Shown here in pieces: positions 2,441 through 51,500 of a stretch of DNA of 64,000 bases (positions are counted from its first letter, which is position 1; every line of letters starts with the position of its first letter). The stretch covers positions 35,731,947 through 35,795,946 of the forward strand of contig CM039466.1 of the NCBI GenBank assembly GCA_022414725.1, in the 5' to 3' direction. The position numbers and the translations under genes were made by a program. Under the pieces are notes generated by a model that was given only the letters and a program-made list of their open reading frames with translations, was not told the DNA's origin and searched no databases. The DNA is from Microglena sp. YARC (taxonomy: Eukaryota > Chlorophyta > Chlorophyceae > Chlamydomonadales > Chlamydomonadaceae).

Positions 2441-5400
2441 TCCTCCATGGTGATCAATCTTCAAGCTTGCTCGTTGTAATCTCCACTGTCCAAATAGGNN
2501 NNNNNNNNNNNNNNNNNNNNNNNNNNNNNNNNNNNNNNNNNNNNNNNNNNNNNNNNNNNNNNNNNNNNNNNNNNNNNNNNNNNNNNNNNNNNNNNNNNNN
2601 NNNNNNNNNNNNNNNNNNNNNNNNNNNNNNNNNNNNNNNNNNNNNNNNNNNNNNNNNNNNNNNNNNNNNNNNNNNNNNNNNNNNNNNNNNNNNNNNNNNN
2701 NNNNNNNNNNNNNNNNNNNNNNNNNNNNNNNNNNNNNNNNNNNNNNNNNNNNNNNNNNNNNNNNNNNNNNNNNNNNNNNNNNNNNNNNNNNNNNNNNNNN
2801 NNNNNNNNNNNNNNNNNNNNNNNNNNNNNNNNNNNNNNNNNNNNNNNNNNNNNNNNNNNNNNNNNNNNNNNNNNNNNNNNNNNNNNNNNNNNNNNNNNNN
2901 NNNNNNNNNNNNNNNNNNNNNNNNNNNNNNNNNNNNNNNNNNNNNNNNNNNNNNNNNNNNNNNNNNNNNNNNNNNNNNNNNNNNNNNNNNNNNNNNNNNN
3001 NNNNNNNNNNNNNNNNNNNNNNNNNNNNNNNNNNNNNNNNNNNNNNNNNNNNNNNNNNNNNNNNNNNNNNNNNNNNNNNNNNNNNNNNNNNNNNNNNNNN
3101 NNNNNNNNNNNNNNNNNNNNNNNNNNNNNNNNNNNNNNNNNNNNNNNNNNNNNNNNNNNNNNNNNNNNNNNNNNNNNNNNNNNNNNNNNNNNNNNNNNNN
3201 NNNNNNNNNNNNNNNNNNNNNNNNNNNNNNNNNNNNNNNNNNNNNNNNNNNNNNNNNNNNNNNNNNNNNNNNNNNNNNNNNNNNNNNNNNNNNNNNNNNN
3301 NNNNNNNNNNNNNNNNNNNNNNNNNNNNNNNNNNNNNNNNNNNNNNNNNNNNNNNNNNNNNNNNNNNNNNNNNNNNNNNNNNNNNNNNNNNNNNNNNNNN
3401 NNNNNNNNNNNNNNNNNNNNNNNNNNNNNNNNNNNNNNNNNNNNNNNNNNNNNNNNNNNNNNNNNNNNNNNNNNNNNNNNNNNNNNNNNNNNNNNNNNCA
3501 TGGCCCAGGCCACCAAACCACCACACACACATACACACTTACATCCACCTAAACAGCACAACCACACAACATCCACCCACATGACTACACACAACCACAC
3601 CCACACACCAGCCCATCTACCACTGATCATGTCAATGTTGCGACCAGGGTGATCATCCCATATGCCGTCAAACACAAATGCCAGGCCAATCAACATCCAC
3701 ACAACCCAGCCCACACTTATCACCTTACCCACCCCACACAACATTCCACCATCAAAATCCACCATACACATGACTACACAACTAACCACACACCCAGCCC
3801 ACCTACTGCAGATCCAGCCAGACATTGCGATGCCAAGAACATTGCCATCAAACCACAGCCCCTACCCCACCATGAAAAGCATCATACCAAGCCACCTGCC
3901 AAGCCTCCGAAACTACACAATGTCAGAACACACGCCATCGACCATGTGGCGACCCAAGGATCACATTGCCGCCATCAAACACAGAAACCCACCACCTATG
4001 AATAAACAATCAGCTACCCAAAAGCCCTGTAACGACGGGTAATCCCCACCCTAAAACCTACGCCTTGATATCTCATCACTCACCCAGTGCAAGACATCCA
4101 CCCCAATCACACCCGTACGGCGCGCTCACAATCACCATAATCACAACTAACCTCGCTGATAAGCAACCCAGCCTCTATAGGTCTCCGATCCCCAAAACCC
4201 AAGTCCACAAATACAACTCAGACAACCCGCCACACCAAACAACGCACTAACACACCTCGCTACCGCAAACCAGCCTATCCCTAAGCCCCCAACCACCACT
4301 GCAAGACACCTACCACTAGAGTCGCTTATAAGCTCCGCTACCCCCATACACGCAAACCTGACCGCCACCCATGCAGATAACAATGCGCACACCCAACCCA
4401 CACAACACGTTCTTGAATTCAGACATAGCCACCTGAAGATCACATTGCCGTGATCAACACGATTGCTGATCTAAAGACCCGAAAGAACACCACTACCCAC
4501 CAAAAACCAAACCACTCAACACCACACCACCCAACCCACACAGCCGCCTACCACTGATCATGTCAACGCGTAGGACTTGTGAGCATTCACATGTCGTCAA
4601 ACACATGGCTCATATTCAAAGACCTGGAAGACTCCACCACCCACCAACCACCCAACACCACACCACCCACACACCCAGCCCACCTACCACTGATCACGTC
4701 AGATGTAGCGACCGTGAGCATCACATCGCCATAAAACCAGTGCTCGGATCTGAAGACCCGGAGAATCCAACAAAATCAACCGACACCCCCTACCAGCAGC
4801 CCACACACCTAGCCCACTACCGCCCCGATCACATCAGGTTAGCAACCGTGAGCGATCACATCGCCATAAAAACACTATGTTCGCGGATTCTGACGACCCA
4901 GAGACATCCAACACCAACCACACCACCCACCACACTATACAACATTCCACCACTAAACCAAACCACCAACCACACCCCACCCCACCAGCCACCAAACCCA
5001 CTGATCAGATCACGTAGATGTAGCTACCGTGAGCATCACTTTGGTCACTTCAAACCCATGCTCGATCTGAAGACCCGGAAGAAATCCAACATCAACCACA
5101 CCTTCCCCACCACCCACACACCCACCCACCTACCGCCGATTCACATCAGGTGTAGCGACCAGTGGATACATGACTCATCTAAGCACAAGCTCAATCTAAG
5201 AACCAGAAAGACATCCAACACCAGCCACACCAACCACCAACCCACACATATGACAAACACCCACCCACACACCACACACAGACTTCACTCCCACCCCAAC
5301 CACACACCCAGCCCACCTTACCATATCATGTCAGACGTTGCGACCTGAGCATCACATTGTCGCATCAAACACAAAGCTCAGATCTGAAGACCAGAAGACA

Positions 5401-8400
5401 TCGCAACTGCCAACCACACCAACCACCGCACATGACTACCCAACCACCACACCCACACACGATGACTACACTCAACCCACACCCACACACCGCAGCTCCC
5501 ACCATGATCATGTCAGTACGTAGCGACCGTGAGCATCAACTATGCGTCATCAAACAAAATGCCCAGGCAAAAAAAGCAACACACCACACACACGCCACAT
5601 TACATCCACACCACACCACACCACACCCACCACACAACATCCACTACCAGCCAACAAACCCCACCACCACACCACACCCACCCAGCCACCTACCCTGATC
5701 ATGTCATAGACGTAGCTGACTGTGAGCATCACATTGTCGTCATCAAACAAATTGCTCAGATCTGAGACCAAAGACATCCAACACCACCTACCCCAACACA
5801 CAACGTCCACCACACATCACACCACACATCATCCACCCCACCACACACCCACACATATGACTACACCCACCTACCCAGCCCACCTACCACTGAGGCATGT
5901 CAGAGTACGACCGTTTGGGCGAATTTTAACAAATTGGGTTTTTTTCCCCATCAAACACATGCTCGGATCCAAAGACCCAGAAAACATCCAACACCACCCA
6001 CACCACACAATTACCCACTAAACCACTAAACATCCACCACACCACCACCACACCCACCAACACCCAACACACACCCAGCCCACCTACCGCTGATCATGTC
6101 AAAGACGTAGCGACCGTGAGCATCACATTGCCCAAAACAAATGCCCAGGGCAAAGCAACACACCACACACCCAGCCCACACTTCATCCACCACACACCAC
6201 ACCCACACCGCAGCCACACAACATTCACTACCCACCCACACAACATTTTTACTACACCACCGCACAACATTTACTACCCACCGGCCACAAACATTTATAC
6301 CCACCGCCACCAACATTTTACTACCCACGCACAACATTTACTACCCACCGCACAACATTTACTACCCACCGCACAACATTTACTACCCACCACACACCGC
6401 CCACACACCATCCACCACCCACAAAACCCTCAACATCCACCCACCACACCAATACCACCACAGGACATCCACACACCATGATCACGCACCCAAACCACAC
6501 GCCACCAACCCATGACTACACGGCACCCCAACCACACCCACACCCATGACTACACGGCACCCCAACCACACCCACACCCATGACTACACGGCACCCCAAC
6601 CACACCCACACCCATGACTACACGGCACCCCAACCACACCCACACCCATGACTTACACGGACCCCAAACCACACCACACCCATGACTACCGCACCCCAAC
6701 CACACCCAACCCAGACTACACGGCACCCCAACCACACACTCAGACCACCTACCGCCTTATCATGTTGCAGAGTAGCGACCGTGAGCATCACATTGTCAGT
6801 CATCAAACAAATGCCCAGGGCCAATGCCAACACACCACACACATCAGCCCACATTACATCCACCAACACCACACAACATCCACTTACCCACTACCCCGCC
6901 CACCACTCCACCCACCACTCCATACACCCAACGCCACCTGCCGCTGATCATGTCTAGATGTAGCGACGTGAGCATTGTCTCATCAAAACAAATGCCCAGC
7001 GGCCAAGCCAACACACCACACCACAGCCCACACTACATCCACACACCACACTGCACAACACCACCACACACACACACCCTACACGAGAACCCACACACCC
7101 AGTTCTACCCACCACTTGATCTATGTCAGACGTTCACCGTAAGCATGACATTTCGTGATCAAACACATGCCCAGATCCAAAGGCCGAAGACAACCAACAC
7201 ACCACACACCACACCACACACAAGCCCACACACCACCCATCACACCCTAGCCCGACCTACCATTGATCATGTCAGAAGTAGCGACTGTAAGCATCACCTT
7301 TTATCAAACACATTGCTCAGATCCAAAGGCCCAAGACAACCAACACCACACACACACACCACAACATAACACCACTACCTCCAACACTGCTTGCACCACC
7401 CACCCCACCATACACCCAGCCCACCCCCACCGCTGATCATGTCAGTGGGGGGGGAATCGTAGGACTGTAGCATACACATTGTCGTCAAACACATGCTCAG
7501 ACGAGACCCAAAAAAATCATACGCCAGAAGTCCAAATGCACTATCTGCATCCTGAAGCTCCTCAGTCCAATCAGTGGAGGATGTCGGAATGCAATGAGCA
7601 CTGCTACCAACTGTGGTTGATAAGGGTGGGGTAGGGACACTGTTAGTCTTGTTGGTGGGGTGGGGTGGGTTGTGGTACATAGGTTGGTAGGGACACAATC
7701 AATTAAAAAATGTTTGAGCGATGACACCGCTACCAAGCTGCATTGCGTTGGGAGGTGGGGTATGTGTGTTGTTATGTGGTTGTGGGTTGGCTGTGGTGTC
7801 TGGGTTGGGGTAAGGGTGGGGTTGGGGTCGGGTGGGTGGATGGCGGGGCTTGGTGAGTGAGTACAATCAATTAAAGATTTAGAAGACGTTGATAAGCAAG
7901 AAGTCTAATAGCATACCGTTGCCGCAATCCTGAAGCTACTCAGTCTGAGGTGGTGTGGTGTGGGGCAGACGTCTGAGGCAAGGCACTTACACCAATCTGT
8001 GCATAGGAGGGGGTGGGGGGGCGGGGGGCAGACGACAGAGCAATGGCCACTACCACCAAGCTGGTGGCAAAGGGGGGCAGAGGGGGGTATAGAATGGTGT
8101 GGTGAGCTGTTGTTAGGTGCATGGATGGTGGAATGGAATGGAGTAGCCTTCTCTCCCGCTTGTTATCTTCAGTAACAATGTCTAGCCCTCTACCCGTTTA
8201 CCTCTCCTCCCTACCAACCTCCCCCCCTTACACACACCAACCGCCACCACTGCCCCACACACCACCCCACACCTAACACACCCACACTTACGACCACCAC
8301 CAGACACCCCATACCCCCGCCCCCCCACCACCCCCACCCCCCACCCACCCCCCACACACATACCACACCACTCCCCCTCCCCCCCGACACCACACACACC

Positions 8401-11400
8401 TCCCCCCAACACACACACACCATACCCACACACCCCCCCCCCCCCGCGCCGCGCACACACACACACCTCCCCCCAACACACACACACATACCACCACACT
8501 CCCCCTCCCCCCCGCACACACCACACACCTCCCCCCACCACACACACACACATACCACACACTCCCCTTCCCCGACACACATACACACCCCAGCTACACC
8601 ACCACCACACACACACACCCTACACTCCCCCCCCCCCACCACCACCACACACACACACACACACACATTACCACACACTCCCCCTCCCCCCGCACACACA
8701 CACACCTCCCCCCCGACAACATCCACCCACCCCAGGGCTACTGTTCAAGTTAGTTATTGCTGTGAGTCTGGAAGTTAGTCAGTTCCAGGCAAGTGCCCAA
8801 AGCAATAGCCCATCACATCAGTGGAGCTGAACGTCAGCCTGAAGGGCAAAGAGGAATGTCGAGGCGAGTGAGGGGGGGAGGGGGGGGGAGGTCGTGGAGC
8901 AGTGAGGCGAGGTTGATGAGGCGATGAGGAGCTGGGAGGGGGGAGAGCGGTTGGGACGGTTTAAGGGCGTAAGGGGAAAGGATCTGAGCCGGTATGAGGG
9001 CAGGGGTGTGGGTGGGGCAGGAGGCTAGAGCAGAGTAAGGATATGCACATAATATAATTAGGGGGCAGCCATTCAGCCTGGGGAGAGGAGGTAGGGTAGG
9101 AAGAGAGGGGGGAGGGGGAGAGGGAAGAAGCAGGGAGCAGAGTAAGGGTTATTACATATTTAGTTGGCATGAATCAGCCTGGAGCGGGTTGAGGGGCGAG
9201 AGGGGGTGGCAGGGGGGGGGGGAAGGCAAGTGAGTTAGAGTAGGATATAAATATTTAGTGGGGGCATATAGCCTGGAGGGAGGGGGGAGGGGCGAGAGAG
9301 TGGTGAGGAGGGTGTTCGGGGTGATGCTGTAAGGTGTGGGGTAATGGGTGAGGGGTTTGGGGCTGGCTGGAAGGGGTGGGGGTGGGATGATTTGTAGGGG
9401 TGAGGGGTGGTGGGTGAGGGGAAAGGATGAGAGGGGGGGAGGGGTGAGACTGAGGGTGAGGGGGTGGGGTGAGGGGTAGGGGAAGGGAGGGGAGGGTGGG
9501 AGGGGCGTCTGAGGGGGAGCGGGAGAGCGAGGCAGGAGCAGAGGGGAGGAAAATATAAATGAATCTTGGATAAGAGAGTCTTGAGTGACATGACAGACAC
9601 ATCACACTCATGCATACGCCTCCGATCACCACCCACCCACCCACCCGCACCATTTAATAAGCACACACATGCCCACACACCATCCAATACAACCCATACC
9701 CACACATACCCTCCCACACATCACATAGCCCCCCCCCCCCCCCCCTCCCAACACACACCCCACCCCACACATTTACACCCACAAGGAGCCCCCACCTTAG
9801 GAGGGAGCCTCAGCCTCATCAATGGGCAGCCCTCTTAGACAGGAAGGAGAGGTAACATACACCACCACCACCACACACATCACACTTATGGATACACACA
9901 CACAAGGCCCCACCTTAGAGGAGTCCTCAGCCTCATCAATGAGCCCTCTTGGAAAGGAGGGTGAGGTACACACACACCACACACCATCACCACATACACA
10001 CACCGCCACCACACACGTACACACATGGACATGGTCTCCCAAAACACCAAACAACCACGCACACCACACGATCACCAATGTATACCGCACACACACAAGG
10101 GCCCACCAGTAGTGAGTTCCCCTCACTCATCAATTAGCAGCCCTCTGGGACAGGGAGGAGAGTTGTTTTCCAAGGGGTTCCTCCCAACTTCCTGAGACGG
10201 CATGGAAGACACCAACTGTGGAAACCCAAACAACCTGGGTTGGGGGAGAGGGTGGGGGAAAGGGTGGGAGGAGTTGGGTTGCTCCATCCATCCTGAGGTA
10301 ACGCCATGAGACGCCTACTGGAGATGCACCAACAACCTGCAGGGCCAAGATGGTGGGCGAGATTGGGGAGAGTGTTGGTGGAGGGTGTGGGGTGTGGGGG
10401 CATGAGGTTGGCAGAGGGGATGGGTGGGGAAGGGGGCGGCGGGCCATATGTCAGCGGTTTGGGAGGGGAGGGGTTGGGGATGTGTGTGTGTGTGTGTGGT
10501 GTGTGGTTGTTGGGGGCCGAGGTTGCGGGGGGTGGGGGGGGCTTCCAGCTTCCGAGTAGAGGGCATGGGAGACCACCACTGTGGAGAATGCCGCCAACAA
10601 CCTGTAGGGTGGGGCGGAGAGGGTGGGGGAGGGTTGGGGGGTTGGGGGGGGCGGGGGGCCAGGGACAGGTGGGGGGGGGGGGGGGGGGAATTGGGGTCGT
10701 TCTTCAGCCTACCCTGGCTGCTCACCGTCTGCCAATTACCTTTCTTGGGAGCACGCTAAATGGAATTAGACACTATCAAGTATCAACTACTTGTCCAGGA
10801 GGCTATTGAAGCAGTTGAAAGCCTCAACTATACTATCATAATTTAAATATTTATACACATGCATATATATAACATACACCGGCATTAACAATACCGCTAT
10901 CCTCTACCATGGCGCTATTTGACACATCCTTGAAACAACTTCCCGGGTCATACATCATAAAAAATAGTGCAAGTATTTATATACATTTACATATGCCATC
11001 TAATATTATATAACCCTTATAGCAATTTCAGCAGATTATTGAATTTAGGTCTGCAGTTCCCCAGTTTCAACCTCAACATTTTAGGAAACCCCACTTTCCA
11101 ACAATTCAGAATCCTCAGAAAATCCTCAGAATTCTCTGTTACTCATGCCAATAATGTCAGAATTCTCAGTCCGAAAATTCTTTAGTTGAGTACAAACAAC
11201 GAACTACAAACTACGAATTGTCGACCACCAATCCAAAACATCCCTGAATTGCTTGTAAAGACTTGCCCAGGAGCTATATATATATATATGATTATTAATA
11301 CCCTTAAACCCTACAACTGTTTTGAAACCTTATTTCCTACCTTCCTTTTTTCGTCTGAACCCGTTCCATAATTTCAAATCCAATCTGCACGGACAACTTG

Positions 11401-14400
11401 TTTGATGATCAGACCCCAGATCTGTCTTCCTGCCCCCCCCCCCCTTCCTCCCCTCCCCCTCCGTCGCAATTACCCATACAAGAATTTTTCAGACTTCTGA
11501 TTCAAAAACCAGGATATCTCCGTATATATAGCGATCGCTAGTTTACCCTTGATTTTGGGAAAATTTATCGCTATAAACAGCAACTAATAAAACAAATTTT
11601 TTGTGTGCCCAAATGGCCCCTTTTTTAAAAGGCTAACAAAAAGCTACAAAAAAACACTTATAAAAACGCTTGTCCCTGGAGGAGCCTAGAACCAACAAGC
11701 TAGAAAAAAACCCACTTTCAGATTTGAAAAAACAACAACACTGATCAAAGCTCACTTAATATACATATTACACATTATTATACGTAACCACTTAACCATA
11801 CAAAACTTCTAAGACTTATAATTAAAAATCACCAGAAAATAGCATCCAGGAAGCCGACGTTTTTTAGTAAAAAGACTGGCAATACTTGATCAAGAAGCTG
11901 TGAAGCAGTTGAAGCTCATATGTATAAACAAGTATTTATATACGTAATAAATATGAATATAACCATGAACTATAATATACATATAAACATGAATGTAACC
12001 CCATGCACTATAATATACATATAAACATGAATATAAACCATGAACTATAAAGATATACAATATAAATATGAATATAACTATGAACAATAATATACATATA
12101 AACATTGAATTTTAACCTATGAACTATAATATTACATATAAATATGTACATTGTCATCACTATAAAGGGTATACATTATAAATCAGAATATATAACCATG
12201 GACTATAATATAAATACAAAATATGTACATTGTCATCAACTATAATATACATATAAACATGAAATATAACCATGAACCATATAAAATATAAATATGTACA
12301 TAAACCCAAACTATAATATTGTACATTTAAGCATTAAACATCAAAACTATAATATGTACATATAAGCATTAAACATCAACTATAATACTATACATATAAG
12401 CATTGACCATATGTTACAGTCCAGGGGGGGGGGAGGGGGGGGGGGAGGGGGCCAAAAAGGCAAAGGGGATATGTCCAACCGTGACAGGAAGGGCTGAAAA
12501 GGAAAAGCATCGACAAAACTGAACCCCAAACATTTGTCTAGAACGCGAAGGTGACCATACAAGAATTCTAAAAAACAACTCACCAGAAATAGCAATCCAG
12601 GCAGCCTTGAGATGAGAAGTCTGGTAATACTGTTAAATACAAAATCACTAAGAAAAAAGCAGTCCAGGAAGCCTAGACATGAGAATTATTGTAATGCTGT
12701 TAAATACAAACCAATAGAAATAGCAGTCCAGGCAGCCTTGAGATGAGAAGTCTGGTAATGCTGTTAAATCAAACTGACCAGAAATAGCAGTCCAGGCAGC
12801 CTTGAAATGGAAAGTCTGGTTATACAGTTAAATATAACTCACCAGAAATAGCAGTCCAGGAAGCCTTGAAATGAGAAGTCTGGTAAGTACTTGATGATGA
12901 GGTACAATCCAAAGAGGGATACTGATGCTAGGATAGGAGCAAGGAGACCCTATGAGGAGGGATGGAGGAGGTGTGAAGGTGAGGGTGGGGGTGGGGTGTG
13001 TGTGGGTGGTGCGGTGGGTGTGTGGGTAGGAGAGCAGGTACGGATGGATGCGAGGGATTAAATTTAAAGAGGGATACTGATGCTAGGATAGGAGCGAGGA
13101 GACACTATGAGGGAGGGGAGGGAGGGAGGTGTGAGGGTGTGGGTGTGGGTGTGGGATGTGTGCGTGGGAGGTGTTGGGTTGGGGTAGAGAGCAGGTAACG
13201 AGGGATGAGAGGGGTTACATCTAAACAGGGATGGGAGGCTAGGATAGGAGCAAGGACAGTCCCTATGATGGAGCGAGAGGGAGGTGCGAGGGTTGGAGTG
13301 GAGTGTGTGTGGGGTGGGTGTGTGGTGGTGGGGGAGGTGGTAGTCAGCAGGTAAGGATGGATGAGAGGGGTAACATCTAAAGAGGGAGACGGAGGAAAGG
13401 ATAGGAGCAAGAAGTCCCTATAGGGGAGGGAAGGGAGGGAGGTGCATAGGTGGAGTAGGTGTGTGTGTGTGTGGGTGGGTGGTGGGGTGGGGTGGGATGG
13501 GGTTGGGGGGGGGGGACGTGGTAGAGAGCAGGGAAGGAGGGATGAGAGGGTAACATCCAAAGAGGGGGAAGAAGAAAAGGATAGGGGCAAAGAGTCCATG
13601 CGATGGAGGGGGGAGGGAAGGTTGCGGTAGGTAGAGAGGTGTAGGTTGGGGTTGGAGTTGGGTTGGAGTGGGGGGAAGGGGCAGAGAGCAGGTATGGAGG
13701 GATGATAGATAGGAGCAAGGAGCCCCAGGGGGGCGAGGATGGGAGTGGGGTGGGGGCGGGGTGGAGGTGGAGGTGGGGGGTGTGGCGGGCAGAGAGCAGG
13801 AGGGAGGGATGAGAGGCGTAGAACCAAAAGACTGAGACGGAGGCAAGGATAGAGAGCAAGGCGTCCCTGGTGGGGGGGGGGGGGGTAGAGATGGAAGTGT
13901 GTGGGGAGGGGTGGGGGGGTGGAGGGTGGGAGGGGCAGGTAGGGAGAAATGAGAGTAGAAGAAAGTAGACACTGGGGGGAAGGGGAGGGTGGAGGGTTAG
14001 GGTAGGGATGGAGTGAGGGAGGTGAGTGGGGTGGGGTGTGAGGGTAAGGGAAGGGGCAGAGAGCAGGCAAGGAGGGATGGGATACAGATGCCAGGAGTCC
14101 CTGGGGGGGGGGGGAGGGAGGGTCATGAAGGTTAAGGGTAGGATTCGAGGGCATGTGGGGGTGAAGGTAGGGTGAGGGGTTGGGGTGTGGGGTAGGGGGT
14201 GGGTAGGGGAAAGGGGGCAGAGAGCAGGTGGGTGGGATGGGAGATATAAGGCAGGAGTCCCTTGGGAGGGGAGGAGAGGGACAAAGGCCAGGGTAGGGAT
14301 GGAGATGTGAAGAATGGATGTGTCCCCCCTCCCTTCGACCCCCTCCCCACCCCGCCCCACCCTTCACCCCCACCCCTCCACCTCCCTCCCCCCACCCCCC

Positions 14401-14681
14401 CCACACACACACACATCCTTACCCCCCTCCCCCCCCACACACACCCTCCACCCACCCAGCCTTCACGCCCCATCCCCACCCACCTCGTTGAATGAGATCA
14501 TTTGGCGTTGCTCGGTGGTTAGAGAACGATGTGCTCCGATGTAGATGGTGGTGACGGCGAGCCCAATGAAGTAGGGAAGGTCCGCATCCTGTGGTGCAGA
14601 AAGGAAAAATGAGGCATCTGATTATTATATGAACGCTGTTCCCTGCTACATTTTATAATAATAATAATAATAATAATAATA

Positions 14682-14720
<39 letters not shown>

Positions 14721-15523
14721 ATAATAATAACGGTAATTATTATTATATTGTGTAATAATAATAATAATTAATAATAATAAAAAATAATAATAATAATAAT
14801 AATAATATATAATGGTGATGCTGATGGTGGCAATGTTGATGGTGGTGATGTTGATGGTGGTGATGTTGATGGTTGGTGATGTTGATGTGGTGATGTTGAT
14901 GTGTGATGTTGATGATGAAGTTGATGGTGGTGATGGATGGTAATGTTGATGGTGCGTGATGTTGAATGTTTGATGGTGGTGATGTTGATGGTGGTGATGT
15001 TGATGGTGGTGATGTTGATGGTGGTGATGTTGATGGTGGTGATGTTGATGGTGGTGATGTTGATGGTGGTGATGTTGATGGTGGTGATGCTGATGGTGGT
15101 GATGTTGATGGTGGTGATGTATGTTGATGGTGGTAATGTTGATGGTGGTGATGTTGATGGTGGTGATGTTGATGGTGGTGATGGTGGTGATGTTGATGGT
15201 GGTATGTTGATGGTGGGTGATGTTGATGGTGATGTTGATGGTGGTGATGTTGATGGTGGTGAAGTTGATGGTGGTAATGTTGATGGTGGTGATGTTGATG
15301 GTGGTGATGTTGATGGTGGTGATGTTGATGGTGGTGATGTTGATGGTGGTGATGTTGATGGTGGTTGATGTTTGATGGTGATTTCCCCTAGTTTTGATGG
15401 TGACCATGTAGATGGTGGTGACAACAAGCTCAATGAAGTAGGGCAGGTCCGCATCATGTGGTGCAGAGAAGCAAGTGATTCACAGCATAATATGATAAGT
15501 GGGTCATAATTAAAATACTACTG

Positions 15524-15589
<66 letters not shown>

Positions 15590-17536
15590 ATAATAATAAT
15601 AAAAGTAATAATCATAATCATAATCATAATAAATTAATAATGGTGATGCGGGAAGGCAAGTGCATAATTCATCAAACATGTTCTGCATTTAACAAGGCGT
15701 GATGTTCAGGGGGCGAGCCAGCAAAGTCGGTGATATGATTGGATTATTGCCCTAGCCACTGTTTTGTTCGACGACGCCTCGCCATTCTGTCGCTGCATGG
15801 TGACGCAAGGGTCTGGCTAAACAAGACAGAAATGCCCCCCCACCCACCCCCCAGGCCCACTAGGGACCACTGCTGCCCCCTCACATGAAACAGTGCCCCC
15901 CGCCCACAAAGAACAGCCCCCCCCAGAGCTCTTTTCCCTCCGCTACCAGTAGTGATCGCTACCTGTGACCCCAGTCTGGCCAAACCTTCCACTACCCTGA
16001 GAATTGAATCTCGGCCCCGCCCCAAGACCACCCAGGGCCGCTACCAGTAGCGATCGCTACCTAGGACCCTGTTTTGGCCAAACCTTCCACTACCCTGAGA
16101 CTTGAATCTCGGCCCTGCCCCAAGACCACCCAGGGCCGCTACCAGTAGCGATCGCTACCTAGGACCCTGTTTTGGCCAAACCTTCCGCTACCCTGAGACT
16201 GCCCCGCCCCACCCCGCCTTGCCCCCCAACAAAACCCCCCTGGGCCGTCCCAGCAGGGCAAGCCTTTCTGGCCACCCACCCAAATCACTACCAGGAGCTC
16301 AACCTTGAAAGACACCAAATCCCTGATCACTACTAGAAGACCCCTTTCTGAAACGGAAAAAAAAAAACTCTGCATGTGCCCCACTCTCCAACTGCGACTG
16401 CAGCCCAAGGATGGGCCCAAACAGCGACAGGCCAGCCACCACAGCTACCATCCAACCTCATGGCGAAGATATGATACCTTATTACTACTCCCCATTGTCC
16501 GGCCAAAACTTCACAATCAACCCAGCAGGTATTGACATCACCAGAACCAACAATAGAGTAGAACTATGCGCTATCCACCATATCCACTATATGTCCACTA
16601 CTATTTATTTTTTGTATATTATTACTGCCACACCGGCGGCTCAAAGATTTACTAGGCTGATATCTCGTCCAGATACACCAGCGTGGCGCCAGGCCGCTAC
16701 CATCCAACCTCATGGCGAAGATATAAAATCTTATAACTGCCACGCAGGCCGCTAAAAGATTTTCCAGACTGGCATCAGGTCCAGGTGTACCAGCGTTGCG
16801 CCAGGCCGTTACCATCCAACTTCATGGCGATAAGATTTGCCAGACTGGCATCTAGTCCAGGTTCACCAGCGTGGCGCCAGGCCGTTACCATCCAACTTCA
16901 TGGCTAAAAGATTTACCAGACTGGCATCTGGTCCAGGTTCACCAGCGTGGCGCCAGGCTGTTACCATCCAACTTCATGGCTAAAAGATTTACCAGACTGG
17001 CATCTGGTCCAGGTTCACCAGCGTGGCGCCAGGCCGTTACCATCCAACCTCATGGAGAAGATATAATATGTTATTACTGCCACGCAGGCGGCTCAAAGAT
17101 TTTCTAGGCTGGCATCTCGTCCATATTCACCAGCGCCGCGCAAGGCCGTTACCATCCAATCTACTTCCCACATGGAACAGTGCCCCCCACTCATCGACTG
17201 AGACTGCAGGCCCCCACCCACCTACTCACTCACTCACTCACCGACTGCCCCCCACTCACAGACTGCGACTGCAGGCCCCTACCCACCCACTCACTCACTC
17301 ACTCTCCCACCCACACACTCACCCACTCACTCACAGACCGCCCCCCACTCACCGACTGCGACTGCAGGCCAGGGATGAGTCCAAACAGCAACAGGCCAGC
17401 CACCACACTGTAGGCTAACACGCTGTCCTCGCTCTCCTCCCACTTCCACTCATCTGCCTTGGGGGCTGGCATTGATTTGACGTTGCCATCAGCAACGTTG
17501 TCATCTGCTACAGCCACTGCAACCACCACTGTGGCC
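1665..17536 (-). CDS. Signal peptide peptidase-like gene, fragmented
   Basis: Presenilin-type intramembrane aspartyl protease of the ER, which cleaves signal-peptide remnants and type II membrane segments. On the minus strand, exon-like blocks occur in SPP order: TM1 (17536-17353), a block with VTTIYIGAHRSLTTEQRQ (14588-14484), LFGLYLIIKYLP to FLDCYF (12949-12843), W-LLAAFSTVVVSHAL (from 10601), then degenerate blocks resembling the HWL..N segment (about 9.0-9.6 kb), LG..VIAQ and SFR (about 8.06-7.5 kb), LLAYDFF with the TM6 YD motif (about 7.5 kb), DVMLTVATSD (about 7.4-3.6 kb) and ALxFRxDVS (about 2.4-1.7 kb). Introns between the first four blocks keep phase. The GxGD motif cannot be read and several lower blocks need frameshifts, so this may be a functional gene with poor sequence, or a pseudogene. 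The start codon and terminal exon were not found. Confidence 0.65.
2499..3498. other. Assembly gap, 1000 N
   Basis: Exactly 1000 N, the usual placeholder for a gap of unknown size. Open reading frames running through it are meaningless. Confidence 0.99.
3499..7460 (-). repeat. Tandem array of SPP-like exon, about 16 units
   Basis: Units of about 130-200 bp share plus-strand GATCATGTCAGACGTAGCGA and CCGTGAGCATCACATTGTCG. Spacers are CCACACCA-rich. Minus-strand units read as short exons; one near 4.7 kb gives SEHWFYGDVMLTVATSDVIS and one near 5.7 kb gives LFDDDNVMLTVSYVYDMI, followed by a donor-like GGTAGG. SPP proteins have FWVFG...VMVTVA(K/T)S here, directly after the TM6 YD motif. Units carry many single-base indels relative to one another. 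Long His/Thr/Pro plus-strand frames in this region are products of the spacers. Confidence 0.7.
7461..8170 (-). repeat. SPP-like exon copies (SFR and YD region)
   Basis: Two related minus-strand blocks. Near 7.6-7.46 kb one frame gives TEELQDADSAFGLLAYDFFG and a neighbouring frame of the same bases gives LRSFRM. Near 7.95-7.87 kb the counterpart reads LSSFRIAA before a stop. Shorter copies near 7.73 and 8.07 kb start with an acceptor (CAATGCAG or CACCAG) then CTTGGT; the first reads LGSGVIAQTF. SPP has LG.AF.IQGIELISLGSF(K/R) followed by LL.GLF.YD.FW, so the pieces match in order but need frameshifts to join. The GGTGGGG-rich spacers resemble introns of neighbouring arrays. Confidence 0.6.
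8180..8735. repeat. CACA and C-rich minisatellite
   Basis: Alternating (CA)n and C-runs in units of about 60 bp (ACACACCTCCCCCC pattern). No coding signal; the Gly/Val/Cys-rich minus-strand frames are low-complexity artefacts. From 8736 to 8860 there is ordinary sequence without a recognised feature. Confidence 0.85.
8861..9600 (-). repeat. Tandem array with HWLxxN-like exon cores
   Basis: G-rich spacers (GGGGAGAGGG) separate about four cores near 9.05-9.08, 9.14-9.18, 9.24-9.28 and 9.55-9.59 kb. On the minus strand the first three begin with the acceptor-like CCAG|GCT. The first reads AEWLPPNYIMCISLLC, comparable to KHW(L/I)ANN.LGL.F in SPP. The others are shorter or shifted. The order relative to the neighbouring SPP-like blocks is correct. 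Confidence 0.5.
9601..9780. repeat. CA-rich spacer
   Basis: CACACA and CCCACC repeats with a C-run at about 9729-9744. No feature supported. Confidence 0.7.
9781..10145 (-). repeat. Three exon-like copies with DEAE core
   Basis: Three units of about 135 bp. Minus-strand cores near 9.84-9.80, 9.97-9.91 and 10.16-10.11 kb read SCLRGLPIDEAEAPS, SFPRGLIDEAEDSSK and a decayed third version. The middle copy ends in a good donor, AAG|GTGGGG. The position suits the SPP loop after TM3 (a PFLxKxLPxG... region), but the peptide is too short to assign. Spacers are CA-rich. Confidence 0.5.
10150..10720 (-). repeat. Three copies of SPP-like exon d with G-rich spacers
   Basis: Minus-strand cores start at acceptor CAG|GTTGTT near 10236, 10345 and 10601. 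The copy from 10601 reads LLAAFSTVVVSHALYSEAG in the frame set by the preceding SPP exon. The other two are diverged (LFGFPQLVSSMPSQEVG; and one with a stop). Spacers are G-rich, with a GT microsatellite near 10480-10500. Confidence 0.6.
10541..10601 (-). CDS. SPP-like exon d (partial)
   Basis: Acceptor CCTACAG|G at 10602/10601. The first base completes the TG left by the exon at 12949-12843, giving TGG (Trp), then LLAAFSTVVVSHAL. This matches the YFF-LLG-hydrophobic segment after TM2 in SPP (for example YFFVLGILALSHT in the human enzyme). No consensus donor is visible after the segment, so the 3' limit is approximate and the copy may be truncated. Confidence 0.5.
10740..11920. other. AT-rich stretch with decayed SPP exon copies
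   Basis: No gene found. At about 11835-11905 the minus strand carries a diverged copy of the 3' half of the SPP exon at 12949-12843 (CTTGATCAAGTATTGCCAG, then TTCCTGGATGCTATTTTCTG) with a stop. A shorter scrap lies near 10770-10815. A TATATATA tract lies at 11276-11290 and a C-run at 11432-11444. Confidence 0.5.
11921..12420. repeat. AT-rich tandem repeat
   Basis: About a dozen degenerate units of 35-45 bp with the motif ATAAACATGAATATAACCAT and ACTATAATATACAT. No coding signal. Confidence 0.85.
12421..12842 (-). repeat. Tandem copies of SPP exon c 3' half
   Basis: After G-runs (12425-12450) and a block like one at 60.1 kb, four or five units of about 70 bp carry, on the minus strand, TTACCAG|ACTTCTCAT then GGCTGCCTGGACTGCTATTT and CTGGTGAGT. 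Each unit therefore keeps an acceptor-like and a donor-like end around the F-L-D-C-Y-F coding core. Confidence 0.75.
12843..12949 (-). CDS. SPP exon c (transmembrane segment 2)
   Basis: Acceptor CTCATAG|GGT and donor TTCTG|GTGAGT; 107 nt, phase 0 in, two bases out. It encodes GLLAPILASVSLFGLYLIIK then YLPDFSFQGFLDCYF. It aligns without gaps to the human SPP segment PIIASCTLLGLYLFFK, and its Lys and following Tyr/Phe-rich helix start are conserved. The 5' half is the core of the array at 12950-14330 and the 3' half that of 12421-12842, so the exon sits exactly where two arrays meet. This exon is intact. Confidence 0.8.
12950..14330 (-). repeat. Tandem array of SPP exon c 5' half, about 8 units
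   Basis: Units of about 120-190 bp. The minus-strand core begins AG|GGACTCCTTGCTCCTAT or a variant and continues CCT(C/A)(C/G)CATC(A/C)GTCTCCCTCTTT, the LLAPILASVSLF part of the adjacent exon. Cores drift away from the exon at higher coordinates (variants such as RDFLLLSFPPSPSLDVTPL). Spacers are GGGTGG-rich. The long Pro/Ser/Leu-rich minus-strand frames across this region are read-through of the array. Confidence 0.8.
14484..14588 (-). CDS. SPP exon b (loop and TM region)
   Basis: Acceptor CACCACAG|GAT and donor GAG|GTGGGT; 105 nt, phase 0 at both ends. It encodes DADLPYFIGLAVTTIYIGAH then RSLTTEQRQMISFNE. Plant SPP has N-terminal TACITVYVGCFRSVK followed by a Met-rich lead-in to TM2; the AVTTIYIGAHRSL match and order are good. 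Joined to the exon at 12949 it reads ...SFNE-GLLAPILAS. Intact, with a consensus donor. A second, damaged copy lies at about 15371-15475. Confidence 0.8.
14652..14812. repeat. TAA/TTA trinucleotide repeat
   Basis: (AAT)n followed by (TTA)n, able to fold back on itself. Confidence 0.95.
14815..15370 (-). repeat. 15-bp minisatellite derived from an SPP exon
   Basis: About 35 units. Minus-strand unit ACCACCATCAACATC (peptide T-T-I-N-I). The SPP exon at 14588-14484 contains ACCACCATCTACATC (T-T-I-Y-I), one base different, and the damaged exon copy at the high-coordinate end of the array runs straight into the repeat. The simplest reading is that this satellite grew from that exon. Confidence 0.9.
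15371..15475 (-). pseudogene. Damaged copy of SPP exon b
   Basis: Minus strand reads DADLPYFIELVVTTIYM from an acceptor region CTGCACCACATGAT that has lost its AG, then diverges into the minisatellite. It is a second copy of the exon at 14588-14484, with the RSLTTEQ part missing. Confidence 0.8.
15519..15640. repeat. CTA and TAA trinucleotide repeats
   Basis: (CTA)n of about 70 bp followed by (TAA)n and (TCATAA)n. Confidence 0.95.
15700..16234. repeat. About 100-bp tandem repeat
   Basis: Three units begin GCTACCAGTAG(C/T)GATCGCTA near 15943, 16037 and 16138 and share CCAAACCTTCC(A/G)CTACCCTG. C-runs precede them at 15834-15850. No gene recognised. Confidence 0.8.
16235..16350 (-). repeat. 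Interspersed repeat C, copy 1
   Basis: Matches the sequence at about 25700-25805 in inverse orientation (shared CCACCCACCCAAATC / GATTTGGGTAGGTGG, and AAGACACCAAATCCCTGAT / ATCAGGGATTTGGTGTCTT). Confidence 0.85.
16351..17160. repeat. SPP TM1 exon copy plus about 110-bp tandem array
   Basis: At about 16375-16430 the minus strand reads VVAGLSLFGPILGLQSQL, a copy of the TM1 core at 17353-17536. From about 16435 to 17160 there are six units sharing TTACCATCCAACCTCATGG, AAAGATTT(A/T)CCAGACTGGCA and CACCAGCGTGGCGCCAGGCC. The latter array has no coding core that I recognise. Confidence 0.8.
17161..17352. repeat. CTCAC-rich array of exon ends
   Basis: CACTCACTCACTCAC tracts alternate with short copies of the adjacent exon's 3' end (GACTGCGACTGCAGGCC on the plus strand). 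Confidence 0.8.
17353..17536 (-). CDS. SPP exon a (TM1)
   Basis: Donor TCG|GTGAGT at 17353/17352, phase 0 out. Coding ends VLAYSVVAGLLLFGLIPGLQ-SQS, then the next exon starts DADLPYF. Plant SPP has a TM1 of the same spacing before its VYVG segment. Upstream of the helix lie an acidic stretch (ADEWKWEESEDS) and EATVVVAVAVADDN. The acceptor is uncertain: AG at about 17536 follows an A-run and C-run rather than a good polypyrimidine tract. No initiator exon was identified upstream. Confidence 0.65.
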
Positions 17537-17757
17537 TCTTTTTTTTGGCGGGGGGGGGGGGGGGGGGCAGGGGGGGGGGGGGCAGGGGGGGCAGGGTTTA
17601 GGTGAGTGGGGGGGGGGTGGAGTGGAGGTATGACGGAGATGGTAAGCTGCACTATCCACTTCCACTCATCTGATTTTGGGGTGATGTTGGTTCGACGTTG
17701 CCACCTGCTACAGCCACTGCAACCACCACAGTGGCCTCTTTTGGTGGGGAGGGAGGG

Positions 17758-17795
<38 letters not shown>

Positions 17796-18180
17796 GGTTA
17801 GTGGGTGGGTGGGTGGAGTGGGGGTATGACAGAGATGGTAAGCTGCACTATCCACTTCCACTCATCTGATTTTGGGGTGATGTTGGTTCGACGTTGCCAC
17901 CTGCTACAGCCACTGCAACCACCACAGTGGCCTCTTTAGGGGCAGTGCAGGGGAGAGGGGGGGTCGGGGGGGCAGGGTTTAGGTTAGTGGGTGGGTGGGT
18001 ATGAGGGTGGGGTATGTTGCAGATGGCAAGCAGCACCATCCACTGCCACTCATCTGCTTTGGGGGCTGACGTTGGTTTGATGTTGCCATCTGCAACTGAC
18101 ACTGCAGCTACCACTGTGGCCTCTTTAGGGCAGGGGAGGGTGGGTGGAGGGTGTGTGTGTGGGGGGGGGGGGGGGGGGGG
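17537..18180 (-). repeat. Partial copies of SPP exon a with G-runs
   Basis: Three units of about 180 bp. Minus-strand cores near 17735, 17938 and 18125 read EATVVVAVAVAGGNVEPTS or EATVVAAVSVADGNIKPTS and PKADEW, then leave the exon sequence before the TM helix. G-runs of 15-30 bp sit between units. Confidence 0.8.
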
Positions 18181-18404
18181 GTATGTGGTAGATGACCTCC
18201 ATTACCCCAATCACACCATCAAACCCTCATCACCCTGACCACCCCATCCACCGCCGTACTCCCATACCACACCATCACACACCTATCACCCCGGCCACAC
18301 CATCAAACCCTCATTAACTCAATCAAACGACCCCATCCACCCCTTTACTCCTATGTCACACCATCACACCCACATCACACCGGTCACACCATCACCAGGA
18401 TTTT
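18181..18404. repeat. ACCATCACAC-rich spacer
   Basis: Loose repeats of ACACCATCA(A/C)AC and CACCCC. No feature recognised. Confidence 0.6.
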
Positions 18405-18594
18405 TCTTTTCGGCTTGTCATAGCACCTTCTAGGCAGCTCCCTGAGCCAACCACTTGGCTACACAGAACTATTTCAGCAGTTCTAGAAAGCTTATCACGT
18501 CAGCTTCAAGGTGCTCGAGGTTGCACCAAGTTCTGCTGAATAGCCAGTCAGAGGAGCTGTCTAGAAGCCGCTGCTCGTAGCTGAAAAGAAACAC
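18405..18594. mobile_element. TIR element A1 (about 190 bp)
   Basis: Left end TTTTTCTTTTCGGC...CTTCTAGGCAGCTCCCTGAG and right end (reverse complement) CTTTTCAGCTACGAGCAGCG...CTTCTAGACAGCTCC are inverted copies. Same family as the elements near 23.8, 25.9, 34.3 and 43.3 kb. No internal coding capacity, so it looks like a non-autonomous inverted-repeat element. Confidence 0.75.
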
Positions 18595-19220
18595 AGACCA
18601 TCACAGCACCAGATACACTGTACATGACGTACCATTCTCTCCATCACGAGTTGCCTTCGGCACTACAACAGTCAACCTGAAAAAGTGTAAGCGAGGTACA
18701 AGCCAATTGTCAGTGACTAAGCGTCAGAGGATTGAATTAAAAAATTGCAATGCATGCACGTACACACCCTCACACACGCATCCTCACCCACGCACCTTCA
18801 CCAACCCACACACACCCACACATCCTCACCCACGCACACCCTTACACACCCACAACCTCACCCACACCCACACAATCACCCACACCCACCCTCACCCTCG
18901 ACCACACCCTCACCCAACCACCCACCTACACCCTCCCCCCACATGCACGCACACACACACACACACTCACCCCCCCACACACACACACCCTCGCCCCACC
19001 CTCATCCTCACCCTCACCCACCCACCTACACCCATCCACACCCACCATACCACAAAAATAAAAGGAGAAAAAAACGCCAGGTGAAACGTTTTTTTTGTGT
19101 GCAACAGTCCCTGAGGGTGGGTGGGTGTGGGTGGGTGCGTGGGTGTGGGTGGGTGGAGGGTGGGGGGGGTGATGGGGGGTGGGGGGTGGGGGGGGGGAGT
19201 GTGTGAGTGTGTAAGCTTGG
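18595..19220. repeat. CA-rich then GT-rich low-complexity block
   Basis: (CACCCACAC)n at about 18757-19045 and its near complement (GGGTGGGTG) at about 19108-19215, which could pair as a long hairpin. No gene seen in 18595-18756. Confidence 0.75.
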
Positions 19221-22745: not shown

Positions 22746-22844
22746 TGCTGTTCCCTACCTATGAATAGGGATATGACTAATGCATTCTATACTCAGGATC
22801 CCCCTCAATCTGAGATGAATCGGGGCTTATAATCTCATGTAAGA

Positions 22845-23716
22845 GCAGCAGCTTCTAGACAGCTCCCCTGCCTCCCCAGTGTTTTTATTTTCAGGCACGA
22901 GCAGCAGCTTCTAGTCAGCTCCCCTGGCTCCCCAGTGCTTTTCTTGTCAGGGACGAGCCGCAGCTTCTAGACAGCTCCCCTGCCTCCCCAGTGCTTTTCT
23001 TGTCAGGGACGAGCCGCAGCTTCTAGACAGCTCCCCTGCCTCCCCAGTGTTTTTATTTTCAGGCATGAGCAGCAGCTTCTAGTCAGCTCCCCTGCCTCCC
23101 CAGTGCTTTTCTTGTCAGGGACGAGCCGCAGCTTCTAGACAGCTCCCCTGCCTCCCCAGTGCTTTTCTTGTCAGGGACGAGCCGCAGCTTCTAGACAGCT
23201 CCCCTGCCTCCCCAGTGTTTTTATTTTCAGGCATGAGCAGCAGCTTCTAGTCAGCTCCCCTGCCTCCCCAGTGCTTTTCTTGTCAGGGACGAGCCGCAGC
23301 TTCTAGACAGCTCCCCTGCCTCCCCAGTTTTTTTTTTCAGGCATGAGCAGCAGCTTCTAGTCAGCTCCCCTGCCTCCCCAGTGCTTTTCTTGTCAGGGAC
23401 GAGCCGCAGCTTCTAGTCAGCTCCCCTGCCTCCCCAGTGTTTTTATTTTCAGGCATGAGCAGCAGCTTCTAAGCAGCTCCCCTGCCTCCTCAGTGCTGTT
23501 CTTGTCAGGGACGAGCCGCAGCTTCTAGTCAGCTCCCCTGCCTCCCCAATGCTTTTCTTTTCAGGAACGAGCTGCAGCTTCTATACAGCTCCCCTGCCTC
23601 CCCAGTGCTTTTATTTTCAGGGACAAATCGCAGCTTCTAGTCAGCTCCCCTGCATCCCCAGTGTTTTTATTTTCAGGGACGAGACGCAACTTCTCGGCAG
23701 CTCCCCTGCCTCCCCA
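22845..23716. repeat. 56-bp satellite built from TIR-element end
   Basis: About 16 units of 56 bp. Two subtypes alternate: TTTTTATTTTCAGGCATGAG and CTTTTCTTGTCAGGGACGAG, each followed by C(A/C)GCAGCTTCTAG and CAGCTCCCCTGCCTCCCCAG. The unit is the terminal sequence of the TIR elements and the array runs into element A3. Confidence 0.9.
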
Positions 23717-23915
23717 GTGTTTTTATTTTCAGGCATGAGCAGCAGCTTCTAGGCAGCTCCCCTGCCTCCCTATCCAGCCAAACCTAATGCAGTCTACTGC
23801 ACCTGGACGCTGCCGTCATCAGTAATCTACATCTGTTGGGATGTTGGCACAGAGCCTAGTGGGTTAGACAGGAAGCTGCTTGGAAGCTGCTGCTCGTACC
23901 TGAAAAGAAAAACAC
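23717..23915. mobile_element. TIR element A3
   Basis: Inverted ends TTTTATTTTCAGGCATGAGC and (reverse complement) TTTTTCTTTTCAGGTACGAG, both followed by AGCAGCTTC. About 200 bp, no coding capacity. Its interior is close to element A4 near 25.9 kb (shared CTACTGCACCTGGACGCTGC). Confidence 0.75.
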
Positions 23916-24189
23916 AAAGATAAATGGTTGTGCAACTCGTCTTCTGAAGCACCCATCATTTGGGTGTGTGTGTGCTAAAACCCATTTACTAACCCTAGCT
24001 TTAAAAAAGTTAGGAGCCATACGGCCTGATCCTGATATCAAAAATAAATTAATTCTTAAATTATATTAATAAATTCATTCCTTCTTCTGAGGTCATTTAA
24101 ACACCAAACACTCTCTCAAATATGGTATACAAAAGCATTGGTTGAACACCTTGCCTTTGAAGCATCCCAGCTAAGGTGGTACCTGCCCA
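23916..24189. other. Intergenic or 3' flank, nothing seen
   Basis: Ordinary AT-rich sequence downstream of the cyclophilin-like gene; no recognised feature. Confidence 0.4.
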
Positions 24190-24345
24190 CAAACACACAA
24201 CACAGCACAGTAGCACACTAGTGGAGCTGATGGTGGTAGTCAGGCAAGGACCCATCGTAAGTGCCCTTGCGAAGTTGTCCGACTGCCTTTAACTGCACCA
24301 CCTTGTGGTGCATCTCGTTATTTGGAGCCCCTCAGCTCAGGTGGT
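24190..24345 (-). pseudogene. Copy of the cyclophilin gene's last exon
   Basis: Minus strand reads APNNEMHHKVVQLKAVGQLR then KGTYDGSLPDYHHQLH and a stop. It is clearly paralogous to the exon at 24836-24693, with an open frame but no visible acceptor. It may be an alternative terminal exon or a remnant. Confidence 0.7.
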
Positions 24346-24439
24346 GCGTGCCCACAGACACACAACACAGCACAGCAGTGGGAAGGTATTGGACGATTTG
24401 GAAGATGCGGATATTATTTTAATTGGCCCTTCTAGAACA

Positions 24440-24625
24440 CCAAACACACCTGCACACATACACACAACACAGCATAGCAGGACAATAGTGGTGCTGGGGG
24501 TGGAAGTCAAGCAAGGGAGCATCGTAAATTCGTAAGGACCCTTAAGAAGTTGTCCAACTCCCTTGGACCTGAGCCATCCGATTATGCACCTCGTTCTTTG
24601 GAGCGCCCATGGCTCCGCTGGTACC
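24440..24625 (-). pseudogene. Second, decayed copy of the last exon
   Basis: Minus strand reads GAPKNEVHNRMAQVQGSWTT then a stop; a frameshift separates the two halves relative to 24836-24693. Flanking sequence (ACACAACACAGCA) is shared with the neighbouring copies, showing a tandem duplication of about 240 bp. Confidence 0.7.
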
Positions 24626-24692
24626 TCTGGACATTCAAGCAGCAACTCTGATCGGGTGGTATCTGCCCGCATGCACACATGCACACGGCACG

Positions 24693-27600: not shown

Positions 27601-28237
27601 TTAGCAGCAAAAGAGAGATACTGCAGCAGCAGCAGGAGCCACGGTGATGGAGAAGCGACCCGTGTTCGTGTCCGGCCCTCCGTTGGCCGCAGACAGGAGG
27701 TACTGCATGGGTGGTTGGGTGGGTCAATGGGTTGGTGGGCAGAGGTACTGCAGCAATAAGAAGTTGGTAGTGGGAGGTTAGCAGCAGGAGAAAGATACTG
27801 CAGCAGCAGCAGCAGCAGCATATGCCACGGTGATGGATAAGTGACCCGTGTTGGTTTCCGGCCCTCCCTTGGCGGCAGATAGGAGGTACTGCATGGTTGG
27901 TTGGGTGGTTGGGTGGGTGAATGGGTTGTTGTTGGTGGTGGTGGTGGAGTGTGTGTGTGGGGGTGTGTGTGTGGGGGGGTGAATGGGTTGGTGGGCAGAT
28001 AGGAGGTTCTGCAGCAAGAAGAGGTTGGTAGGGGAAGGTTGGCAGCAGGAGAGAGATACTGCAGCAGCAGTGGATATAGGTCCATTGTGTTGTAGCTTCA
28101 AGCCTCCGGGATCATCCCTCAAGGTTTCACCACAGGTGGGCCCAGTCTAGTCAATAAAGCGGCCGATGATGCGGTAAAAGGAAGAGCATTTAAAGCTGGA
28201 AGGCTTGCGTGTGTGTATGTGTGTAGTGGTGGTGGTA

Positions 28238-28293
<56 letters not shown>

Positions 28294-50500: not shown

Positions 50501-51500
50501 NNNNNNNNNNNNNNNNNNNNNNNNNNNNNNNNNNNNNNNNNNNNNNNNNNNNNNNNNNNNNNNNNNNNNNNNNNNNNNNNNNNNNNNNNNNNNNNNNNNN
50601 NNNNNNNNNNNNNNNNNNNNNNNNNNNNNNNNNNNNNNNNNNNNNNNNNNNNNNNNNNNNNNNNNNNNNNNNNNNNNNNNNNNNNNNNNNNNNNNNNNNN
50701 NNNNNNNNNNNNNNNNNNNNNNNNNNNNNNNNNNNNNNNNNNNNNNNNNNNNNNNNNNNNNNNNNNNNNNNNNNNNNNNNNNNNNNNNNNNNNNNNNNNN
50801 NNNNNNNNNNNNNNNNNNNNNNNNNNNNNNNNNNNNNNNNNNNNNNNNNNNNNNNNNNNNNNNNNNNNNNNNNNNNNNNNNNNNNNNNNNNNNNNNNNNN
50901 NNNNNNNNNNNNNNNNNNNNNNNNNNNNNNNNNNNNNNNNNNNNNNNNNNNNNNNNNNNNNNNNNNNNNNNNNNNNNNNNNNNNNNNNNNNNNNNNNNNN
51001 NNNNNNNNNNNNNNNNNNNNNNNNNNNNNNNNNNNNNNNNNNNNNNNNNNNNNNNNNNNNNNNNNNNNNNNNNNNNNNNNNNNNNNNNNNNNNNNNNNNN
51101 NNNNNNNNNNNNNNNNNNNNNNNNNNNNNNNNNNNNNNNNNNNNNNNNNNNNNNNNNNNNNNNNNNNNNNNNNNNNNNNNNNNNNNNNNNNNNNNNNNNN
51201 NNNNNNNNNNNNNNNNNNNNNNNNNNNNNNNNNNNNNNNNNNNNNNNNNNNNNNNNNNNNNNNNNNNNNNNNNNNNNNNNNNNNNNNNNNNNNNNNNNNN
51301 NNNNNNNNNNNNNNNNNNNNNNNNNNNNNNNNNNNNNNNNNNNNNNNNNNNNNNNNNNNNNNNNNNNNNNNNNNNNNNNNNNNNNNNNNNNNNNNNNNNN
51401 NNNNNNNNNNNNNNNNNNNNNNNNNNNNNNNNNNNNNNNNNNNNNNNNNNNNNNNNNNNNNNNNNNNNNNNNNNNNNNNNNNNNNNNNNNNNNNNNNNNN
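50501..51500. other. Assembly gap, 1000 N
   Basis: Exactly 1000 N placeholder. Confidence 0.99.

Follow-up and report, generated by a model that had tools for sequence, protein, structure and literature searches.

The minus strand of the window, the whole stretch of 64,000 nucleotides of Microglena sp. YARC analysed here at C5:35731947-35795946, most likely carries a working gene of the A22B family whose introns have grown by repeated short, local and direct tandem duplication. We give this reading a probability of roughly 0.8; the gene is presumably expressed. Judged from sequence, its coding blocks are exons of an A22B gene from a clade distinct from canonical signal peptide peptidase (SPP). 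The copies found in the introns follow a rule. Those upstream of an exon carry the acceptor and the 5′ edge, and those downstream carry the 3′ edge and the donor.

The exons of the gene in the window, the two scaffold gaps and an array past the first gap are given below, with exon edges set by hand or taken from profile hits.

17355-17530, minus strand: exon C, KADEWKWEESEDSVLAYSVVAGLLLFGLIPGLQSQS; donor GTGAGT; 5′ end set by hand
14484-14588, minus strand: exon D, DADLPYFIGLAVTTIYIGAHRSLTTEQRQMISFNE; AG/GT at both sides; absent from the EukProt gene model P0001, present in relatives
12843-12949, minus strand: exon EF, GLLAPILASVSLFGLYLIIKYLPDFSFQGFLDCYFW; AG/GT at both sides; meeting point of two different arrays
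10112-10236, minus strand: exon G, the LRKLGG..PVPEG region; frame-broken as assembled; donor not fixed
8710-8845, minus strand: tentative exon ahead of the YD exon, read by hand only; frame-broken
7447-7610, minus strand: exon I with the YD motif, GLLAYD as assembled and GLLAYDVFWVFGSEHVFDDNVMLTVATSDMISG in P0001; 3′ end set by hand
2499-3498: scaffold gap of 1000 N, where the exon I array ends
1706-2372: 86-bp array past this gap
50501-51500: second gap of 1000 N, adjoining the array of a plus-strand exon

Exons C, D and EF read open, as does the last exon of the gene on another contig, C583. All splice edges that were checked are canonical, namely the exon C donor, both sides of exons D and EF and the acceptor of the last exon. 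A preliminary description had followed minus-strand blocks in the order of SPP from 17.5 kb down to 1.7 kb. From 17.5 to 3.5 kb, this order was confirmed: the blocks follow the A22B order and match relatives. It does not extend to 1.7 kb. An SPP identity for the array at 1706-2372 was rejected, as no SPP relative matched it among the 25 best matches listed.

The joined exons match the A22B profile PF04258 with an E value of 2.7e-17 (63.8 bits against a cut-off of 23.3), with exons G and I entered in the letters of P0001. In the PF04258 family search of the whole genome (568 Mb, 2390 contigs), none of the window exons reached E <= 0.001 by itself; the last exon on C583 was found by a PF04258 genome search with 33.6 bits. 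A search with the joined hand-read minus-strand peptides gave 53 proteins at E <= 0.001, and PF04258 was precomputed for 39 of these. P0001 was the best match (E 1.4e-76); further named matches belong to Nannochloris, Parachlorella, Monoraphidium, Haematococcus, conifers and a fern. The YD catalytic motif is present as GLLAYD at exon I as assembled and as YDVFWVF in P0001, and the PAL motif is present on C583 (QPALLYIVPATLGAV). The GxGD site on C583 reads LPFSLLGWRDIVVPGLL (GWRD) where relatives have LLGLGD; the D is kept and the second G is absent. With the A22B family, the gene shares the profile match, the YD and QPALLYIVP motifs and the exon order of relatives. It differs by the GWRD in the assembly and by its position outside canonical SPP, in a clade of chlorophytes and land plants. 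This clade comprised 18 green-algal and land-plant proteins in a tree of 23 proteins and had a support of 100/99. Human SPP, Arabidopsis SPP and the two other A22B genes of the genome were placed outside it; one of these two, at C5:4.62 Mb, is a canonical SPP gene, and the other, on C1, is SPPL2-like and has a long, unsure branch. The earlier identification as SPP is correct at the level of the family and has to be given up for the canonical SPP subfamily.

The gene is split in the assembly and extends beyond what had been described before. N-terminal exons are located in the window, the exon of the GxGD region and the last (PAL) exon on the unplaced contig C583 (32 kb). This contig contains the GxGD-region exon, an RYDASRSVDM array, a DAALLAFDRV array, AFAYCGGLLVAFIANSITHIGQ and the last exon, QPALLYIVPATLGAV...EKK-stop. 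The last DAA copy (C583:5149) seems to be the true exon, a hand judgement by likeness to relatives. Bases 326-373 of C583 read VFGSEHLFDNNVMLTV, a copy of exon I. The contig thus starts within the exon I array, the array that reaches the 1000-N gap of the window. Among the 25 best matches listed for the window's initial 4 kb and the 20 kb beyond the window, there was no C-terminal exon.

P0001 is identical to the window across several exons and across copy-derived parts, and is therefore regarded as a model of the window gene itself. Around exons G and I, P0001 is in frame and has other letters than the window; hence, it seems to originate from another assembly, apparently of the same species. 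Exon D and the GxGD half are missing from P0001. Its first 15 residues come from 24634-24590, an exon that overlaps a last-exon copy of the neighbouring cyclophilin gene. It also strings copies together, with exon C present twice and the 3′ part of exon I three times. A first exon overlapping a cyclophilin copy and the missing exon D and GxGD half characterise P0001 as a prediction misled by copies.

Copies were searched for 13 exons: five of the window, three of C583 and five of the canonical SPP gene. Each exon with 12-bp flanks was compared with its adjacent introns and with non-adjacent introns at a score threshold of 38. The reverse-complemented exon was run as a control in the exon's own flanks; the threshold of an earlier run had been set above 25 shuffles. 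The own flanks, 64,041 bp in total, contained 60 copies with a score of 38 or more, all direct and distributed over 11 of the 13 exons; two exons had none. Reverse-complemented exons revealed no inverted copies in the own flanks of the 13 exons. The non-adjacent flanks (675,141 bp) yielded one match only, the exon I copy on C583. This supports the earlier proposal of a local duplication of exon plus intron flank. Upstream copies comprised 27 with the 5′ edge, one internal and none with the 3′ edge; downstream copies comprised 20 with the 3′ edge, 12 internal and none with the 5′ edge (Fisher test on edge classes, p 1e-13). Thus, 13 of the 60 copies reach no exon edge as set, and eight of the 12 downstream internal ones derive from exon I, the 3′ end of which is uncertain.

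The array units had been described as copies of the neighbouring block with splice-like ends. Copies and splice ends are real, and the units are for the most part fragments of exon edges instead of whole exons. Whole-exon duplication was rejected as the rule: none of 85 copies of nine curated exons has both edges. The RYD and DAA exons of C583 were omitted from the counts; with wrong or provisional edges, they scored 17 both-edge copies (RYD 10, DAA 7). Summed over the nine curated exons, the splice dinucleotides are retained in 49 of 56 (AG) and 16 of 19 (GT) covering copies; selection against decoys is thus not clearly apparent. Some copies contain stops. The copies of the window gene are located as follows.

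17656-18126, minus strand: three 5′-edge copies of exon C, upstream, in an array with a 196-bp unit
16379-17277, minus strand: three 3′-edge copies of exon C, downstream (17277-17250, 17212-17185, 16443-16379), with 76- and 112-bp arrays between them
15396-15467, minus strand: 5′-edge copy of exon D, upstream, from the copy screen
13038-13879, minus strand: six 5′-edge copies of exon EF, upstream, 155-bp unit
11823-12825, minus strand: five 3′-edge copies of exon EF, downstream, 64-bp unit plus one copy at 11890-11823
10276-10614, minus strand: two 5′-edge copies of exon G, upstream, from the copy screen
9791-9960, minus strand: two 3′-edge copies of exon G, downstream, 114-bp unit
3499-7348, minus strand: array of copies of the exon I 3′ part, nine scored in the earlier run and eight in the 13-exon screen, ending at the N gap

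The rule is seen most clearly at exon EF. The 155-bp array upstream repeats the first half of this exon and the 64-bp array downstream the second half, and the exon itself is intact where the two arrays meet. In the exon I array, a pattern search found additional, more degraded copies. A dispersed motif (GCAGCTTCTAGNCAGCTCCC; complement with AAAAGAAAAACA) was observed by eye in and between several arrays, at 18401-18600 and 22843-27294.

Other exons in the window are also accompanied by copies.

28369-28772, minus strand: cyclophilin exon A (PF00160), one downstream 3′-edge copy at 28206-28078
27310-27435, minus strand: cyclophilin exon B, three upstream 5′-edge copies (27472-27900) and seven downstream 3′-edge copies (26013-27088)
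24691-24837, minus strand: cyclophilin last exon, two copies past the stop (24615-24486, 24345-24205), the first overlapping the first exon of P0001
51562-57578, plus strand: upstream 5′-edge copies of the exon starting at 57714, adjoining the N gap at 50501-51500

The cyclophilin gene (24205-28772, minus strand) has open exons and 13 copies, three upstream and ten downstream, none of them inverted. The plus-strand exon has 34 copies with its start placed 17 bases inside and 35 with the start at 57714; none is downstream and none is inverted. Gap columns in this array increase toward the N gap. The peptide tried for the plus-strand gene (51562-57890) had no Pfam match. No copies were detected for a Sep15/SelM exon (PF08806, E 1.2e-7; 41437-41860, minus strand).

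Six other genes were examined outside the window, an intronless one for tandem repeats only. A search with PF00118 gave 72 matches, of which four compact CCT chaperonin genes on the contigs C1, C2, C3 and C5 were taken. They were chosen by family and for fitting the length limit, not for arrays. With a score threshold of 40, copies were present in all four genes and at 18 of 24 exon hits, with 72 copies in 55,650 bp and none inverted; six exon hits had no copies. The non-adjacent flanks (1,183,170 bp) gave eight distal matches, four of them distinct, each being listed twice because one intron counts for both its exons. Measured along the exon, the centres fall on the left, at 0.04-0.35, for all 23 upstream copies and on the right, at 0.57-0.94, for all 49 downstream ones. 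TRF arrays with a period of 30 or more cover 28-38% of the four CCT loci. The canonical SPP gene has copies at four of its five exons. Taken together, the five family-picked genes have copies at 22 of 29 exon hits; the four large contigs that bear them are 46-195 Mb in size. The inflation, which the preliminary description had inferred for the window gene, is therefore not special to it. The intronless SPPL2-like gene (567 aa, C1:179.87 Mb) contains tandem repeats in 1% of its 3.9-kb locus, and intronless gene copies may escape the process. In the canonical SPP gene (C5:4612001-4631000; L009, L010), the C-terminal FDFTGEFTTEQ lies within a 37-bp tandem array. The minus strand of L013:7558-10000 has a long open frame and pieces that we take to resemble a copia-type retroelement.

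The whole nuclear genome is probably under a regime of short local tandem duplication, with most multi-exon genes bearing trains of exon edges and intact decoy sites on the expected side. If this is true, splicing must rely on exon definition to ignore the decoys. Exon stuttering, the term used for such copies in chicken (Hron et al. 2026, PMC12954441), would then not be confined to vertebrates and would depend on neither high GC nor microchromosomes.

Introns probably lengthen through repeated short, local and direct tandem duplications with units of about 45-315 bp, perhaps by replication slippage, template switching or unequal exchange. A duplicated segment that lies across one splice junction would yield one whole exon and an extra edge on the intron side: a 5′ edge with acceptor upstream, a 3′ edge with donor downstream. 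The observed polarity needs no further assumption, because a junction-spanning duplication keeps the exon whole and places the extra edge intronward. The copies would be tolerated because each has one splice site and is not a complete exon. The spliceosome would pass over these decoys by exon definition, the partner site being missing, and the arrays would afterwards elongate and drift. The simplest view of the copies is that they arise as by-products when a tandem duplication spans a junction. Units are in many cases shorter than their exons, which may by itself be enough to explain the absence of both-edge copies.

Evidence against a working gene with introns grown by tandem duplication includes the broken frames of exons G and I, the LLGWRD of the GxGD exon, the one-sided copies of the plus-strand exon, the exons without copies (two of 13, six of 24 CCT exon hits and the Sep15 exon), the 13 of 60 copies that reach no edge and the 17 both-edge copies of the RYD and DAA exons. 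A decaying pseudogene with arrays as debris would agree with the frame breaks and with the presence of a canonical SPP and an SPPL2-like gene elsewhere in the genome. It is improbable in view of P0001, which is in frame at exons G and I and apparently represents another assembly of the same species, of the open exons C, D, EF and last exon with canonical edges where checked, and of the like arrays borne by open-reading cyclophilin and canonical SPP exons. A complete SPP gene elsewhere, with the window locus untranscribed, had been proposed as an indication of a pseudogene. A canonical SPP gene was found at C5:4.62 Mb. It does not settle the question, because the other A22B genes are outside the clade of the window gene, the SPPL2-like one on its unsure branch, and the window gene has its own C-terminal exons on C583. 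Arrays produced by faulty assembly or sequencing deserve very little credence. N gaps at the ends of two arrays and the break onto C583 are in line with such an artefact, as are the alignments of nine exon I copies to the exon (41 mismatches, 68 gap columns) and of 19 far copies of the 57.7-kb exon at 51.5-55 kb (24 mismatches, 91 gap columns). Mismatches exceed gap columns elsewhere, with 103:7 in the canonical SPP gene, 117:60 in the cyclophilin gene and 600:189 in the CCT genes. The same copies are present in P0001 from a seemingly separate assembly, and random misassembly would not yield the direct, local and polar placement seen in the genes screened. The excess of gap columns makes the exon I copies (3.5-7.4 kb) and the copies at 51.5-55 kb look like poor consensus. 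Since gap columns dominate there and mismatches elsewhere, the frame breaks of the window gene are likely to be consensus errors.

A use of the copies as functional tandem exons, alternative or serial, for protein diversity is very improbable. P0001 does join several copies of exon C and of the exon I 3′ part, most decoy splice dinucleotides are intact, and two short C583 exons scored as both-edge copies. This is countered by the lack of both edges in all 85 copies of the nine curated exons, the stops in some copies, the misled prediction behind P0001 and the wrong or provisional edges of the two C583 exons. A mobile or intron-generating element that spreads exon copies could account for the splice-like ends of many units and has next to no probability: the copies keep to the introns of their own exon, with one distal match in 675,141 bp and eight (four distinct) in 1,183,170 bp, and inverted copies are absent. 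The arrays of natural decoy splice sites provide material for exon-recognition tests. They are also a warning that, in genomes of this kind, gene models and assemblies can contain predictable errors. P0001 absorbs a copy from a neighbouring gene and treats copies as exons, and the gene was split over two contigs.

Tandem exon duplication of the Dscam type concerns whole exons with both splice sites. The alga resembles it by exon sequence in tandem within one gene and differs by copies that are mostly edge fragments with one splice site. The preliminary description had considered the phenomenon as undescribed. A report of February 2026 (Hron et al. 2026, PMC12954441) describes exon stuttering on the dot chromosomes of chicken, with edge fragments plus the splice site repeated in the neighbouring intron. 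It affects 236 introns in 115 genes, including 190 among 5,572 dot-chromosome introns, and is associated with high GC. A wide variation of intron length between individuals of the species is a further feature of stuttering. GC-rich genes of gerbil are named as a further case, with data not shown there. Among the papers listed in literature searches, none names stuttering in algae in its title or in the abstract shown.

The chicken introns share with the alga the local imperfect tandem repeats, the copies of the adjacent exon's lateral part with its splice site next to a preserved coding exon, and regions that are difficult to assemble. The algal copies are local, direct and in tandem in introns beside their source exon, and they consist of lateral parts of that exon together with the splice site next to them, except for the 13 of 60 copies without an edge and the RYD and DAA exons. 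In contrast to the chicken case, the alga is not GC-rich, with 0.509 in the window and 0.487-0.530 in the CCT loci, and the copies are located on each of the four large contigs sampled (C1, C2, C3, C5) and not on a microchromosome. The density of 18 in 24 CCT exon hits against 190 in 5,572 chicken introns is a rough comparison only, as units and screens differ. With dense stuttering in a green alga of ordinary GC, two conditions proposed for it, GC richness and the dot chromosome, fall away. The algal case points to a general duplication process, for example a repair or replication trait, that is open to study outside vertebrates. Compared with the chicken, the alga looks like a denser case of exon stuttering at about 50% GC.
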